Assembly: GCF_001891125.1 (NCBI RefSeq)
Contig: NZ_CP015247.1
Coordinates: 1,568,501-1,632,500, forward strand
DNA: 64,000 nucleotides
Source: Leuconostoc suionicum
GTDB lineage: Bacteria; Bacillota; Bacilli; Lactobacillales; Lactobacillaceae
Reading direction: 5' to 3'
The notes under the pieces are model-generated. The model was not told where the DNA came from. It saw nothing but the letters and a program-made list of their open reading frames with translations, and made no database searches. Positions within the stretch are counted from its first letter, which is position 1, and every line of letters begins with the position of its first letter. Below are positions 20,128-62,599 of this stretch, piece by piece. Both the position numbers and the translations under genes were made by a program.

Positions 20128-20340
20128 ATGATTTATAAAATTTACTACCAAGAACACCCTGAGCGCAATCCAAAGCGTGAAACAACAATTTCAATGTACG
20201 TTGAGGCCGAAAGTTTGCCACAAGCACGTGAAATTGTTGAGGAAAACACAGAATACAATGTGGAGTTTATCGAAGAATTATCTGATAAGGCTGTGACTTA
20301 TGAAAAAGCCAATCCCAACTTCGAAGTTACAACATTCTAA
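20128..20340 (+). CDS. rpoY: RNA polymerase epsilon subunit (DUF1447)
   Basis: 70 aa, the normal size. MIYKIYYQEHPERNPKRETT is the family N-terminus. ATG at 20128 has GGAGG 5 nt upstream; the frame is open further upstream but without an SD. Epsilon is a small Firmicutes RNAP subunit. The stop overlaps the rnjA start (TAATG), the classical rpoY-rnjA pair. Confidence 0.94.
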   Translation: MIYKIYYQEHPERNPKRETTISMYVEAESLPQAREIVEENTEYNVEFIEELSDKAVTYEKANPNFEVTTF

Positions 20341-22022
20341 TGACATATTCTGTAGATATCAAACCTAACGAAGTCGCAGTTTATGCGCTAGGCGGTTTAG
20401 GCGAGATTGGTAAGAACACGTATGGTATCGAGTATCAAAATGAAATTATCGTCGTCGACGCGGGCATTAAGTTCCCAGAAGACGAATTGCTCGGTATTGA
20501 TTACGTTATTCCTGACTATACTTATTTAGTTGATAATATCGATCGCGTTAAAGCACTGGTTATCACCCACGGACACGAAGACCACATCGGTGCAATCGCC
20601 TACTTTTTACAAGCTGTTAATGTTCCAGTATACGCTGGCCCATTAGCAATGGCATTAATTAAGAACAAACTCGAAGAAAAACAGATGCTTAATCGCGTCG
20701 AACTTCATGAAATTACTGATGGATCAGTACTGGAATTTGATCAGTTAAGTGTCGAGTTTTTCCGTACTACCCACTCTATCCCTGATGTATTTGGTGTAGC
20801 TGTACACACACCTGTTGGTACTATTGTCGAAACTGGTGACTTTAAGTTTGACCTGACACCTACTACTAAACAGCCACCTAACCTTTGGTCCATGTCCCGT
20901 ATCGGTGAAAATGGCGTCTTACTCATGATGAGTGATTCAACCAATGCTGAGCGCCCTGAATGGACAAAGTCAGAAGCATGGGTAGCAAAATCTGTTAACC
21001 ATATATTTGATAAAATTCAACATGGACGTATTATATTTGCAACGTTTGCTTCTAATATGAACCGTGTTCGCATGGCTACAGATGCAGCTATTGCACATGG
21101 GCGTAAGATTGCGGTATTTGGTCGTTCAATGGAATCAGCTGTTACTAATGGCCGTGCCCTGGGATATCTAAATATCCCTGATGACATGCTGGTCGAACAA
21201 TCAGAAATCAAACATATTCCTGACGATGAATTGCTTATTCTATCAACTGGTTCTCAAGGTGAGCCAATGGCTGCCTTAGCACGAATTGCTGAAGGAACAC
21301 ATAAGCAAATTCGTTTGAAGCCAAAAGACAATGTTATTTTCTCCTCTTCCCCAATTCCGGGTAATACGGCATCCGTAAACGCTGTTATTAATAAATTACA
21401 AGAAGGTGGCGCTAATGTCATCTATGGTAAAGTTAATAACATCCACACTTCTGGTCACGGTGGTCAAGAAGAAGAAAAGTTAATGATTGCTTTGTTGAAG
21501 CCTAAATTCTTCATGCCTGTTCACGGTGAATATCGTATGTTAAAGGTCCACGCTTCATTAGCACATGAGCTAGAAGTACCAGAAGACCATACTTTCATTT
21601 TAGAAAATGGTGATGTCTTAGCTCTTGATGGTGAAAATGCACGAGTTGCTGGACATTTCCCTGGCGATGACACATACATTGACGGCTCAGGAATCGGTGA
21701 TATCGGTTCAGTTGTGTTACATGATCGTCAAAAACTGTCACAAGATGGCTTAGTTGTTGTTACAGCAACAATCGATTTGAAAAAGAAAGAAATTCTATCT
21801 GGACCAGATATCCTATCTCGTGGTTTTGTCTACATGCGTGAGTCAGGTGAACTTATTAACGAAGGTCGACGTGTTATTTTCAGTACCATGCGACGTGTTA
21901 TGAACAGCTCAAATAATAGTGAGTCAGATATTCGTCAAGCTGTAATCGATGATTTATCTCGTTTCTTATTCAAAGAAACAGCTCGCAAACCAATGATTAT
22001 GCCAATGCTAATTTTGGTTTAA
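20340..22022 (+). CDS. rnjA: Ribonuclease J (RNase J1 type)
   Basis: 560 aa. Metallo-beta-lactamase/beta-CASP nuclease; HGHEDHIGA (H77, H79, D81, H82) holds the zinc ligands, with SDSTNAERPEWT, FASNMNRVR, LSTGSQGEP and TSGHGGQEE further on. RNase J acts in 5'-3' mRNA decay and maturation. The last 20 codons (from position 21964) lie inside the prophage attachment site, so the C-terminus, stop and terminator now sit at the phage junction. The coding sequence is complete. Confidence 0.96.
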   Translation: MTYSVDIKPNEVAVYALGGLGEIGKNTYGIEYQNEIIVVDAGIKFPEDELLGIDYVIPDYTYLVDNIDRVKALVITHGHEDHIGAIAYFLQAVNVPVYAGPLAMALIKNKLEEKQMLNRVELHEITDGSVLEFDQLSVEFFRTTHSIPDVFGVAVHTPVGTIVETGDFKFDLTPTTKQPPNLWSMSRIGENGVLLMMSDSTNAERPEWTKSEAWVAKSVNHIFDKIQHGRIIFATFASNMNRVRMATDAAIAHGRKIAVFGRSMESAVTNGRALGYLNIPDDMLVEQSEIKHIPDDELLILSTGSQGEPMAALARIAEGTHKQIRLKPKDNVIFSSSPIPGNTASVNAVINKLQEGGANVIYGKVNNIHTSGHGGQEEEKLMIALLKPKFFMPVHGEYRMLKVHASLAHELEVPEDHTFILENGDVLALDGENARVAGHFPGDDTYIDGSGIGDIGSVVLHDRQKLSQDGLVVVTATIDLKKKEILSGPDILSRGFVYMRESGELINEGRRVIFSTMRRVMNSSNNSESDIRQAVIDDLSRFLFKETARKPMIMPMLILV

Positions 22023-22028
22023 ATAAAA
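21964..22028. repeat. attL: Prophage attachment site attL (inside the rnjA 3' end)
   Basis: 65-bp direct repeat of 62535-62599 with one difference, C at 21986 against A at 62557, a synonymous Arg codon change (CGC/CGA). The two copies are 40,571 bp apart. The repeat covers the last 19 codons plus the stop of rnjA. It marks the left end of the prophage. Confidence 0.93.
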
Positions 22029-22072
22029 CCGCTATGTATCAACATTTACAAGAAGTTGATTAGCGGTTTTTG
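22025..22072 (+). terminator. Phage-supplied terminator for rnjA
   Basis: AAAACCGCTA pairs with TAGCGGTTTT, and an inner ATCAAC pairs with GTTGAT, followed by Ts. It lies just inside the prophage and replaces the host terminator that was moved to 62596-62629. Confidence 0.85.
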
Positions 22073-22123
22073 TTTTACTTATTTTCTAAAAATTCACTAT
22101 TATTCATTATTTTTCACTTAAAA

Positions 22124-22154
22124 TTTACTACATTTGCTACAAATTTACTACAAA
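22124..22154. other. Integrase arm-type sites, left
   Basis: TTTACTACA (22124-22132), TTTGCTACAA (22133-22142) and TTTACTACAAA (22144-22154) repeat in the same orientation. Two further copies flank the other end at 62478-62498. Such repeats beside att cores are expected of tyrosine-integrase arm sites; binding is inferred. Confidence 0.6.
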
Positions 22155-22155
22155 T

Positions 22156-22301
22156 AAAAAACCGACTAGATTAATTTCTAGCCGGTTTTTTAACGAGTTT
22201 CATCTATATAGAAACCTAGCAGGATGCGCAATAAATTGATAATCACCTTGGTAGGATATTATCATGGAGTTTGACTGCCAGCTAGGCGTAAAATAATTAT
22301 A
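22156..22301 (-). ncRNA. Candidate small RNA 1 beside attL, with promoter and terminator
   Basis: On the minus strand the -35 TTGCAA (22325-22320) is 18 bp from TATAAT (22301-22296). Predicted start is about 22289, end about 22156. The RNA would fold with CCTAGC (22286-22281) pairing GCTAGG (22220-22215), an inner TGATAAT/ATTATCA stem (22237-22264), and end in the hairpin CCGGCTAGA-CTAGTCGG with six Us (22191-22156). About 134 nt, no credible ORF. Expression is not shown by sequence alone. Confidence 0.55.
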
Positions 22302-22325
22302 CTATATTGACATGCATTTTTGCAA

Positions 22326-22420
22326 GTAAAAAGCCTAACAGATGAATAAGCGAACAAAAATAACTCAGGTAATTATACTTATAGAGCGAAGAAAGTCTGT
22401 TAGGCTTAAAAATAATTATA
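22326..22420 (-). ncRNA. Candidate small RNA 2 beside attL
   Basis: Minus-strand TATAAT at 22420-22415 shares the run TATAATTATTTT with small RNA 1. Perfect 12-bp arms (22407-22396 and 22342-22331, AAGCCTAACAGA and complement) enclose 53 nt and end in five Us, so the whole transcript of about 83 nt would be one closed loop with a terminator base. No clear -35 box and no ORF. Confidence 0.5.
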
Positions 22421-22460
22421 CACTACTAATTTTAAAAAGTGTTTTTAAATATTTTGTAAT

Positions 22461-22503
22461 AAAAAGACCCGATAGGGGTAAAGCTTCTCGGAATGCTATC
22501 GGG
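22461..22503 (-). terminator. Hairpin and T tract downstream of the 85-aa SOS gene
   Basis: CCCGATAG (minus 22503-22496) pairs with CTATCGGG (22475-22468) across 20 nt, followed by TCTTTTT. It lies 80 bp after the stop of the 85-aa gene and is most simply its terminator. A possible promoter TTGGTT-16-TATATT (22547-22520) would instead make it a third small RNA. Confidence 0.6.
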
Positions 22504-22583
22504 CCGCGTAATTACTTTTAATATAATTACATGATTATTTTAACCAATAAATTCTCCGAAAACAATAGCTAATATTAAATCCA

Positions 22584-22841
22584 TCAAAAATCGCCAAGTT
22601 CTACATTTACGTTTGTCTCTTCCTTGATACGTTTCGCTAATTCAGGCATGCGATCCTTTTCAGATTCAACGTACCTACCTATTTGTTCAGAATGTGTGGC
22701 CATACCTATTTTGGCGTACTCAAAGAACACGTTTAACTGCTTGGAATATTTTTGATACACGATGCGCACCCAATATAGGGTATTCTTCTGTTTCGTGAAT
22801 CGCTTCTTGATTTCTTCGATTAGTTTGTCGTCGTAGTTCAT
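22584..22841 (-). CDS. Small prophage protein under a LexA-like box
   Basis: 85 aa, charged and probably helical (MNYDDKLIEEIKKRFTKQKN...KRIKEETNVNVELGDF). No family recognised. It is separated from the lysis genes by a terminator and has its own promoter with a GAACACTTGTTC box (22866-22877), so it should be expressed on DNA damage if the host has LexA. It could be an induction-time factor or an effector of the lysogen; function unknown. Confidence 0.75.
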   Translation of the reverse strand: MNYDDKLIEEIKKRFTKQKNTLYWVRIVYQKYSKQLNVFFEYAKIGMATHSEQIGRYVESEKDRMPELAKRIKEETNVNVELGDF

Positions 22842-22854
22842 AATGTCACCTCTA

Positions 22855-22884
22855 TGACATTATACGAACACTTGTTCTTTATTG
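22855..22884 (-). promoter_or_regulatory. Promoter with embedded SOS (Cheo) box
   Basis: Minus strand: TTGCAA, 17-bp spacer, TATAAT directly before the 85-aa gene. The spacer contains GAAC-ACTT-GTTC (22866-22877), an exact match to the Gram-positive LexA consensus GAACNNNNGTTC. Confidence 0.75.
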
Positions 22885-22888
22885 CAAA

Positions 22889-22927
22889 TAAAAAAGCCAA
22901 CCAGAAATAATCTAGTTGGTTTTTTTT
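22889..22927. terminator. Late operon terminator after holin
   Basis: CCAACTAGA pairs with TCTGGTTGG (one G-T) with T tracts on both strands. It lies directly after the holin stop and separates the lysis genes from the 85-aa gene. Confidence 0.8.
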
Positions 22928-22930
22928 AGT

Positions 22931-23236
22931 TTATTCAGTTTTCTTATCTTCTGCCTTACCAAAACCATTTGCAAAGCCATCAATAATTGATGTGATAGAT
23001 TTAGTGGCCGTTTCATTCAATCCTGTTGAAGCAAAACCAGCCCATACACCTAACACAATGTCTTGCACTAATTTTGTATCTTTGGTGTAAAACGATAGCC
23101 CTGTTGCTACGATAGCACCTACAATTACAGCAATCAAAGGTAACAGATGATTATTAATTTTAGTAGGTTTCAACACCTGAACAATCAACCATACGATCAC
23201 TAGAATTGCGATATTTGAATCTATATTAAATGTCAT
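22931..23236 (-). CDS. Phage holin
   Basis: 101 aa. A membrane segment at 8-25 (IAILVIVWLIVQVLKPTK), a second at about 30-50 (LLPLIAVIVGAIVATGLSFY), and an amphipathic third helix; the C-terminus is charged (GKAEDKKTE). Small size, topology and position next to the endolysin identify it as a holin. The exact holin family is uncertain. Confidence 0.82.
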   Translation of the reverse strand: MTFNIDSNIAILVIVWLIVQVLKPTKINNHLLPLIAVIVGAIVATGLSFYTKDTKLVQDIVLGVWAGFASTGLNETATKSITSIIDGFANGFGKAEDKKTE

Positions 23237-23245
23237 TATTTCTCC

Positions 23246-24340
23246 TTATTTAATTGTCGCAAACGCCTTCATCATGCTGACTGGTTCGCCGCCAATTTCA
23301 ACATTGATAGTTGTTGCTGTTTGACTAATCACTTTGTACTTACCGTTCAAAGTGAAGTACTCCATACGTCCGTTATTGCCTTGAATGTATTGGTTACGCA
23401 ATTTATTGCCATATTTATCAGTCAAAGTTAAGGCTGAGATAGGAATATAGTTGTTGTAATCAATCACTGGAATACTCATATCAATGTTGACACCGTACAT
23501 TTTGTTATTGTACTTAGTCCAGTAATCGGCGACATATACACCACTAAATGTTGCATACTTTGTCGTTGAAGTTGTTGTTGATGTATCAGCAGTTGACTGT
23601 GTCGCCTTTGACGCTACCTTTTCAGCTGGCGTATTGTTATCCAATGAGCCAACGACCATCACGTTCCCATCAACACCATAGTGATTATCAGCGTATTGCC
23701 AAATCTTCACGTTGGAATAGTTAGGGAGATATTGCATAGGTGGTGTTGCTTGATGTGCTGTAGTTAAATACCAAGCCATCCACAAAGCGTTTGGATAACG
23801 TGCATTGATACGGCTCAAATCAACATATGAGTTCACGTAGCTAGTGTAGCTATAAAACATAGGCTTATACCCAGAGGCATAAATCTGATCCATAAACGCT
23901 AGAATAGCTGTTGTGTTGTTGGCCTTATTCGCACCAGCACCTGCTTCATAATCCATAGCGATGTATGAACCTTTAGCTAGCCCTGCATTTTGTGCGTCTT
24001 GAACGGCTAATTGAGCCGAGTAAGTAGCTTCACTGACTGAATCACCTACTTGTGCCCAGAAGTAACCACCCGTTTGCATGCCGACTGCATCAGCGTTATG
24101 AATTTGTGCGTAGGCTTTAGGGTTACTATAATGAGCACCCTCACCGCCACCTCGTCCACCTAGCTTAACCATAGTAAAGTTGTCGCCAACTTGCTTGAAT
24201 GAGTTGAAGTAGCTTGCTGTATCACCTTGATAACTGGCAACATCAATCCCATTAGTATTGGCTGACACGCCTGTGATCATTGCACCAAAAAAGGCAACCG
24301 CTCCGATTGAAGCGACTACCCATCGTTTTAATTTATTCAT
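23246..24340 (-). CDS. Endolysin, GH25 muramidase with Sec signal peptide
   Basis: 364 aa. A signal peptide (MNKLKRWVVASIGAVAFFGA.. to VSA, about 1-27) precedes the glycoside hydrolase 25 domain: GIDVASYQG (D33) and AMDYEAG (D130, E132 catalytic). After about residue 225 there is a Ser/Thr linker and a C-terminal domain of about 100 aa that may bind the wall. Exported endolysins are known from Oenococcus and lactobacillus phages, where the holin controls activation rather than export. Confidence 0.9.
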   Translation of the reverse strand: MNKLKRWVVASIGAVAFFGAMITGVSANTNGIDVASYQGDTASYFNSFKQVGDNFTMVKLGGRGGGEGAHYSNPKAYAQIHNADAVGMQTGGYFWAQVGDSVSEATYSAQLAVQDAQNAGLAKGSYIAMDYEAGAGANKANNTTAILAFMDQIYASGYKPMFYSYTSYVNSYVDLSRINARYPNALWMAWYLTTAHQATPPMQYLPNYSNVKIWQYADNHYGVDGNVMVVGSLDNNTPAEKVASKATQSTADTSTTTSTTKYATFSGVYVADYWTKYNNKMYGVNIDMSIPVIDYNNYIPISALTLTDKYGNKLRNQYIQGNNGRMEYFTLNGKYKVISQTATTINVEIGGEPVSMMKAFATIK

Positions 24341-61421: not shown

Positions 61422-62468
61422 ATGGCTTCAATATATAAAAGAGGTAAAACATTTACCGTTAGTGTATCCGTCCCTTATCAAGGCGGATATAAAAAGAAAA
61501 CTAAATCAGGTTTCAAAACAAAAACCGAGGCAAACCAATGGGCTATAAAAACGGAAGGATCTAAGATTGATGGTGACATTGACTTTAAACCGTCACAACT
61601 TCTTTCTTCCTATATAAGTGAATGGATTGATACATATAAAACAGACGTATCACGTTCAACTCATGTTGGTTATGAAATGACTTTGAAAGCTGTTAGCGAA
61701 TACTTTGAAAATACATCATTAGATCAAGTAACCCGTCACGATGCGCAAAAATTTTTAAACGAATATGGGCTCTCTCACTCTCTTGCTACTAGCCAAAAAG
61801 TCAAAGGACATTTAAGTGGCATATTAAAGGATGCCGTAGCTGATGGAATAATAAGGGTCAATCCTTTTGAAAGAGCAAAACCGCATGGTACTAATGCCAA
61901 AGATAGCTCACTAAAGTTCTTAGAATATACTGACTTTAAATGTTTTATAGAATATCTAAAAGAAAACCATGAGCCAACTCATGATATTATGTTAGTAGCT
62001 TCTTTATCAGGTGCTCGATTGGGAGAGGTATTAGCCCTTACCCCTAATGACATCGGTAATGGAATAATCAATATCAGCAAATCTTATGAAGAACGTTTGA
62101 ATATTGTAAAAGAGCCTAAAACTCCTAGTTCAATCAGAACTGTAGATGTTCCAGAATGGTTAACGGATTACTTACTTACATTATCCAAAGACAACGATGA
62201 AAGATTATTTGATCGTCAGCAATCCAGTGTCAATCGTGAACTGCAGAGAATATTAACACGATTAGACATCCCCAAAAGGATTACTTTCCACGGACTAAGA
62301 CACAGCCACGCTTCTATGTTAATTTCTCAGGGGGTTGCTGTAGAATATATTAGTGAAAGACTAGGTCACAAAGATATCTCTATCACTCAAAAGACATATT
62401 TGCACCTCTTACAAGTTAAGCGAAATAAGGAAATTTCGCACACCATCACGCTTCTTAATTCACTATAA
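61422..62468 (+). CDS. int: Tyrosine-recombinase phage integrase
   Basis: 348 aa. N-terminal AP2-like arm-binding domain (ASIYKRGKTFTVSVSVPYQGGYKKKTKSGFKTKTEANQW), SAM-like core-binding domain, and catalytic domain with R199 (SGARLGE), H290-x-x-R293 (HGLRHSH), the GH of RLGHKDI, and Y326 (QKTYLHL). It lies next to attR and recombines within the rnjA tail. Confidence 0.95.
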   Translation: MASIYKRGKTFTVSVSVPYQGGYKKKTKSGFKTKTEANQWAIKTEGSKIDGDIDFKPSQLLSSYISEWIDTYKTDVSRSTHVGYEMTLKAVSEYFENTSLDQVTRHDAQKFLNEYGLSHSLATSQKVKGHLSGILKDAVADGIIRVNPFERAKPHGTNAKDSSLKFLEYTDFKCFIEYLKENHEPTHDIMLVASLSGARLGEVLALTPNDIGNGIINISKSYEERLNIVKEPKTPSSIRTVDVPEWLTDYLLTLSKDNDERLFDRQQSSVNRELQRILTRLDIPKRITFHGLRHSHASMLISQGVAVEYISERLGHKDISITQKTYLHLLQVKRNKEISHTITLLNSL

Positions 62469-62534: not shown

Positions 62535-62599
62535 TCTTATTCAAAGAAACAGCTCGAAAACCAATGATTATGCCAATGCTAATTTTGGTTTAAATAAAA
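62535..62599. repeat. attR: Prophage attachment site attR
   Basis: 65-bp copy of the rnjA tail (see attL). It encodes the last codons and stop of RNase J in frame, now without an upstream gene. The single difference from attL is synonymous. Confidence 0.93.

Follow-up and report, generated by a model that had tools for sequence, protein, structure and literature searches.

At the attL end of a prophage of Leuconostoc suionicum, three compact units lie in a row on the minus strand between the lysis genes and the attachment site, and judged by their sequence they appear to be genes that make structured RNAs rather than proteins. We lean towards the reading that these units, called U3, U2 and U1 in the order in which they are read, are separate small RNA genes carried as prophage cargo, with their own promoters, with stems that act as terminators and with loops that would pair in trans with other RNAs. 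The window in this study is the whole stretch of DNA that was analysed, 64,000 nucleotides long (G000:C1:1568501-1632500), and was taken from a 2.05-Mb genome.

The attL end of the prophage

The prophage is bounded by a 65-bp direct repeat (21964-22028 and 62535-62599), and the two copies are 98% identical and lie 40,571 bp apart. The first-pass annotation had called attL correctly: the att repeat coincides with the 3' end of RNase J, and therefore that gene stays whole after integration. At 21964-22070 of the window, the prophage rebuilds the last codons of RNase J and brings a new terminator-like hairpin. The features at the prophage ends are as follows.

20340-22022: host RNase J gene, identified by Pfam
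21964..22028, strand not assigned: attL, first copy of the 65-bp att repeat, which overlaps the 3' end of RNase J
22025..22070, script match on both strands: 10-bp hairpin with T tracts (arms 22025-22034 / 22061-22070)
22121..22153, strand not assigned: direct repeats AAATTTACTACA, from the repeat search
22155..22192, minus strand: phage-end terminator of 16 pairs, from the terminator scan
22584..22841, minus strand: 85-aa gene under an SOS box (presumed), from the ORF list
22931..23236, minus strand: holin (Pfam Phage_holin_5_2 and PHROG holin)
23246..24340, minus strand: lysin of glycosyl hydrolase family 25
61422..62468, plus strand: tyrosine integrase at the opposite prophage end (Pfam)
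62535-62599: attR, second copy of the 65-bp att repeat

The 10-bp hairpin is probably an RNase J terminator supplied by the phage and usable on either strand. The AAATTTACTACA repeats are probably integrase arm sites, and Pfam assigns an arm DNA-binding domain to the integrase. The 16-pair terminator (22192-22155) is real but is a phage-end element, because variants of it adjoin attP in phage phiMH1 and other relatives, including relatives that show no U1. The product of the 85-aa gene matched no family above the cutoff in Pfam and PHROG searches. The sequence GAACAAGTGTTC (22877-22866), which we take to be an SOS box, sits between the -35 and the -10 of this gene. On the minus strand the order is thus lysin, holin, 85-aa SOS gene, U3, U2, U1, phage-end terminator and att. 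Temperate phages keep possible host-changing genes at this end of the genome. By eye, the related loci L054 and L056 have a gene for a Y-family (UmuC-type)-like DNA polymerase after the holin, under an SOS-box-like promoter, and in L054 it is followed by a distant relative of the 85-aa protein.

Anatomy and folding of the three units

The three units and their promoters were located as follows.

22537..22565, minus strand: U3 promoter-like site TTGTTT-17-TAAAAT
22460..22532, minus strand: U3, putative small RNA (P1 22530-22508; P2 22505-22466)
22415..22420, minus strand: -10 of U2, TATAAT, a perfect hexamer
22325..22410, minus strand: U2, putative small RNA (perfect 12-bp arms 22407-22396 / 22342-22331)
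22296..22325, minus strand: U1 promoter TTGCAA-18-TATAAT (-35 22325-22320, -10 22301-22296), scanned and re-measured
22206..22290, minus strand: U1, putative small RNA (closing arms 22287-22278 / 22223-22215)

A promoter, a terminator and no conserved ORF were seen for each unit, with U2 having a -10 only: despite the perfect hexamer, there is no good -35 at the expected site. Thirteen nucleotides, GTATAATTATTTT, which cover the -10 and the presumed start, are common to U2 (22421-22409) and U1 (22302-22290), and the -35 of U1 falls within the U2 tail TTTTTACTTGCAA. The region of the units has only short ORFs (59 and 34 aa on the plus strand, 31 aa or less on the minus strand). A small-protein reading of U1 was dropped, the start codon of its 21-codon ORF being missing in the related contig L033 according to our own alignment reading.

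None of 200 shuffled sequences folded as stably as the 85-nt U1 hairpin alone (z -3.78), U1 with the terminator (z -5.67) or U2 (z -4.17). For U3, the 58-nt piece containing P2 and a 67-nt piece had z values of -2.35 and -1.81, with 7/200 and 10/200 shuffles as low, respectively; the U3 fold beats shuffles moderately, and less so than U1 and U2. Unit 1 is thus as the first-pass annotation had described it, with its promoter, nested helices and downstream terminator, and so is unit 2, with a promoter end identical to that of U1 over 13 nt, perfect arms and a U tract.

Comparison with chance expectation

In this region, we counted 13 promoter-like and 3 terminator-like sites, against 9.0 ± 2.3 and 1.1 ± 1.1 in shuffles, respectively. 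Single motifs taken alone are weak, and it is the ordered units that exceed chance. A scanner was run downstream of the lysin gene for a promoter, a closing stem of at least 9 bp, a loop of 25-100 and a U tract. It found 13 places in 98,420 bases, which come down to 7 distinct sequences because the repeats stem from near-identical phages; one of the seven (L256/L271) resembles insertion-sequence DNA by eye. First-order Markov resampling gave a mean of 1.00 (20 rounds, maximum 3), the reverse strand gave 1, and the DNA upstream of the lysin gave 3 places in 292,052 bases. In the window, U2 passes the scanner, though with a hexamer pair other than the one described here, and U1 and U3 fail it (arm mismatch; loop under 25 nt). 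With the promoter condition removed, there were 52 places, many of them in genes, versus 22 in shuffled DNA over 496,000 strand-bases. A slightly stricter scanner gave 20 single matches and no tandem pair in 2,806,004 strand-bases of 163 loci (L061-L223), which is a weak control because this insensitive scanner also missed the phiMH1-like pieces L064 and L066. The three successive minus-strand units that had been proposed beside attL are confirmed.

Units in related phages

Relatives were collected by searches with three neighbouring proteins, which gave 6 (SOS gene), 18 (holin) and 50 (lysin) viral loci and 4 genome loci; the viral loci are partly on the same contigs, and many of them stop before attP. 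IMG/VR contig 2873947292_000001 (L034) and genome G304 carry all three units. In contig 3300043957_000044 (L033), U3 is followed by a 47-aa gene and then by a U1 homologue. A unit with U2-related arms and a different interior is found in contig 2855148562_000001 (L035) and in genome G202 (L003). By script, phiMH1 (HM596271.1) and L. pseudomesenteroides KCTC 3652 have four units each with CCCAACA-type arms, and L. falkenbergense has one, with a second found by alignment. Related Leuconostoc phages, phiMH1 included, thus carry one to several units of the same design in the same slot, in which the closing stem doubles as the terminator and often runs into the next -35. Of 16 folded sequences, 2 came from the window and 14 were related or same-slot units; z was below -3 for 9 of these 14 and above it for 5. 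Two related units were no better than shuffles, namely the U1-like unit of L284 (z -0.28) and unit b of phiMH1 (z -0.40), the latter cut a few bases short in this test. In the same slot of L259 (7700-7820), L262 and L266, we also observed another putative RNA of ~120 nt with a closing stem of some 19 bp, and its L259 copy had a z of -5.7.

A model of U3, named R1, matched 2/19 genomes of the genus at E < 1e-9; at E <= 1, 8/19 were matched, six of them only at E 0.06-0.45. R1 found a second U3 copy in the window's own genome, which was outside the training set, with 68.5 bits. This copy lies in an apparent decayed phage remnant, L284:1184-1580 (G000:C1 about 1184.45-1184.84 kb), and the order there is that of L033: U3, the gene of a 47-aa basic protein and a U1-like unit. 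On 53 related loci, strong R1 matches were limited to the two contigs from which R1 had been built. In 397 sampled genomes of the family (E <= 0.01), there were no matches beyond the strong ones and two that we judged to be chance, at E 0.0015 (G354; L287, which was looked at) and E 0.0063 (G304; L285, coding DNA). The sample of relatives has one genome per species. A scan for CTAGAAATYAATCTRG led, among the matches listed, mostly to contigs that did not look related.

The promoter of U3 stands at the same offset in L033 (TTGCTT-17-TACAAT) and in L284 (TTGCTT-17-TACGAT). Between the window and L033, CCCGATAG/CTATCGGG becomes CCTAGTAG/CTACTAGG, so that three consecutive pairs of P2 are changed on both sides and none is broken, and the 9-nt motif ATTCCGAGA in the P2 loop (22494-22486) is identical despite the changed arms. 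With three rows, the covariation of U3 was reached by 18/500 shuffles, about the minimum that three rows permit, and slid registers of the alignment, used as a control, had no double-sided change. With the L284 remnant as a fourth row, two L284 pairs were unformed, one of them outermost; the covariation score was then reached by 61/500 shuffles, the number of double-changed pairs by 175/500 and the number of double-changed cells by 12/500. For U2, the comparison with L003 and L035 gave two double-sided compensated pairs, with 102/500 shuffles as high, and TGTATAAT at the -10 was invariant in both. The U1 promoter has an aligned counterpart in each of L034, L033 and the remnant L284, and in L033 so have the arms; 92.6% of the cells in the U1 alignment were paired, with no double-sided change. 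The compensation in homologues that had been named as a check on the units was thus found for U3 (with three rows, and weaker with the remnant) and weakly for U2, and U1 had no double change. We rate the structural evidence as fair for U3 and as suggestive for U2, and the case for U1 would rest on its fold energy and conserved promoter.

Alternative explanations

The hairpins might be terminators only, with U3 ending the SOS gene, U2 and U1 insulating the prophage edge and the promoters arising by chance in AT-rich DNA. We consider this unlikely. It is true that promoter-like sites are common by chance (the 13 vs. 9.0 ± 2.3 above), that the unit arms resemble the ordinary GCCCAACT-type terminator stems of these phages, and that U3 P2 starts 78 nt past the stop codon of the SOS gene. 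However, a loop of 53 nt is needless for a terminator, the arms of U3 change in pairs around a partly conserved loop, and the promoters of U3 and U1 are found at the same offset in relatives. The first-pass annotation had the third hairpin end the SOS-boxed gene; the hairpin is present (22505-22466), but a role as terminator only is probably incomplete. Because its promoter is kept in relatives and U3 also occurs in a remnant with no SOS gene seen directly upstream, we believe that U3 is probably not merely the terminator of the SOS gene.

A role as leaders or attenuators, for genes that formerly lay downstream, is still less likely. The window's U3 keeps its compensated arms without the 47-aa ORF behind it, and G304, which has a U3 of the window type, has a distant homologue (49%) of the 47-aa protein elsewhere, with no U3 match there; what speaks for a leader is the 47-aa ORF with a ribosome-binding site within about 30 nt after U3 in L033 and L284. 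The same slot of relatives holds pairs of an RNA and a PBECR4 nuclease gene, and therefore we also considered a type III-like system of which the units would be orphan antitoxin RNAs or decoys. In this slot of L263 and L237, PBECR4 does come after a repeated or conserved RNA, but the window's genome (G000) has no PBECR4 match at E 1e-5 and the units are without repeats of the type III sort, so we regard this explanation as very improbable.

Known RNA families and published phage RNAs

At Rfam 15 gathering scores, the window gave one tRNA elsewhere and nothing in the units, which bears out the earlier statement that no known RNA family was recognised. All 20 Rfam matches up to E 10 in 22000-23000 were below the cutoffs, the best being GP20-b on the plus strand (28.5 of 36.2 bits, E 0.00068), and 12 related loci gave two tRNAs, an L21 leader and nothing else. 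The 'skipping-rope' RNA was also considered as a lead.

In the excerpts of two sources, prophage small RNAs are a well-known kind (PMC12197685, PMC12803456). For example, svsR of an E. coli prophage represses named host genes according to the excerpts (PMC12803456); it is likewise a small RNA encoded by a prophage, but its host is another, and the Leuconostoc prophage has several units in a row. The excerpted review covers VpdS, PreS, 24B_1, sar, OOP, STnc6030 and sas (PMC12197685). Like our units, these are short and phage-encoded, and several are antisense; they differ in belonging to phages of Gram-negative hosts, in that several are Hfq-bound or cis-antisense, and in that the excerpts mention no tandem row. 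Another close likeness is phiMH1, in which the slot between lysis and integrase is unannotated and holds units with closing stems and a U tract running into TTTGC; it differs in having four units by script and more by eye, CCCAACA-type arms and interiors apparently unrelated to U1-U3.

Type III toxin-antitoxin RNAs (ToxI, CptI, TenpI) are small, have their own promoter and terminator and lie on mobile DNA. The units of the window would also be small RNAs with promoter and terminator on mobile DNA, but the window has neither a tandem-repeat RNA nor an adjacent nuclease gene. Among the matches listed in our literature searches, there was no sign of small RNAs of Leuconostoc temperate phages or of a row of small RNA units with swapped interiors, and the terms 'non-coding', 'small RNA' and 'intergenic' are absent from the Leuconostoc phage review PMC4009412. 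Our best reading is that the kind, prophage small RNAs, is known, and that the sequences of these units are new, fast-changing and without an Rfam match.

Possible mode of action and targets

In the reading that we favour, the units are prophage cargo between the lysis/SOS module and attP, and each would be transcribed toward attL, and be active in the lysogen, from its own promoter of the vegetative type. The 5' arm would pair with the 3' arm right before the U tract, leaving a loop of about 20-60 nt; one stem would therefore both end transcription and seal the RNA. With the closing stem as the terminator, the RNA would start in or near the stem and expose its loop. The loop would then be the working part, most likely pairing in trans with an mRNA or other RNA from the host or a competing phage. 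U3 fits such a mechanism because its arms change in pairs while the loop motif is kept; from this we infer base pairing in trans as the way in which the loops may act.

No convincing target came from our searches. The pairing of the U1, U2 and U3 loops with the 83 translation starts in the window was within the range of 30 shuffles each. In a search for exact complements of at least 13 nt between 13 units and 98 Leuconostoc-related sequences, with matches of at least 26 nt dropped as self, the longest matches were arms of paralogues, and the remainder had lengths that 20 shuffles also reach, with one exception: unit c of phiMH1 has a 15-nt match in L036, for which the shuffles reached 13 at most. 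Loop patterns with up to 3 mismatches were found in the own genome at 5 (U3) and 2 (U2) places besides the locus, and the reversed control had 2 and 3, respectively. The best U3 place (2 mismatches) was rejected, as it seems, read from the sequence, to be antisense within a long minus-strand frame. A U2 place 13-31 nt before an aldo/keto reductase gene was also rejected; co-folding gave no intermolecular pairs, and 6/200 shuffles were as good. Of the earlier claim of regulatory RNAs in the lysogenic-conversion slot, the small RNA genes are supported by their promoter-like sites, folds, same-slot homologues and compensation in U3 and, weakly, in U2, and a regulatory role is conjectural.

Tentatively, and with more doubt than belief, we also suggest that Leuconostoc temperate phages keep an exchangeable small RNA cassette at attP, with related arms and swapped loops, as a modular RNA weapon or shield. 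The units of such a cassette, each made of promoter, stem, loop and terminator, would be joined from the U tract of one to the -35 of the next and would be aimed at changing hosts and rival phages.

PBECR4 nuclease genes and the drum RNA

In the related phages L263 and L237, the same slot holds a PBECR4 nuclease gene with non-coding DNA before it. A search of 121 genomes of the family found PBECR4 (PF18813) at 12 places in 11 of them (L290-L301), and 3/12 frames contain stops. A repeated or conserved non-coding RNA precedes PBECR4 in 9/14 loci (these 12 and the 2 phage loci). Tandem repeats of 52-54 nt stand upstream in L291, L292 and L263, and the upstream stretch is conserved between different genera in L290/L299, L295/L297 and L237/L300. 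The upstream stretches of L293, L294, L296 and L301 are similar by eye, with L296 and L301 sharing merely 24 nt, and that of L298 is not. The RNA before PBECR4 in G078 is the Rfam family 'drum', above the gathering score. The loci are as follows.

L263:7710-8644: PBECR4 locus of a related phage
L237:7680-8443: PBECR4 locus of a related phage
L302 1501-1596, minus strand: drum RNA
L306 1501-1610, minus strand: drum RNA
L305:1501-1609: drum RNA

In 301 genomes of the family and 199 of the phylum, three drum matches were above the gathering score; PBECR4 is directly downstream in two of them (G078, G425), and no PBECR4 was seen among the ORFs at the third (G465). Of three matches below the score, that in G098 precedes PBECR4, though a later locus scan at E 0.01 was without this match, and no PBECR4 was seen by eye at those in G189 and G577. 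Sequence searches of PADLOC with two PBECR4 proteins and of the PDB with one gave no relatives. PBECR4 is unmentioned in the literature searched, in which 'drum RNA' is named in one paper. It is possible that PBECR4 and its upstream RNA form a type III-like toxin-antitoxin family, and their arrangement suggests that the orphan family 'drum' is the RNA partner of PBECR4.

Implications

If they are transcribed, the units would be small RNAs encoded by temperate phages of Leuconostoc. Rows of such units, with their loops swapped, would provide a natural set of phage RNAs, the targets of which may be compared pairwise. The occurrence of PBECR4 behind structured RNAs would give the orphan family 'drum' a testable function.
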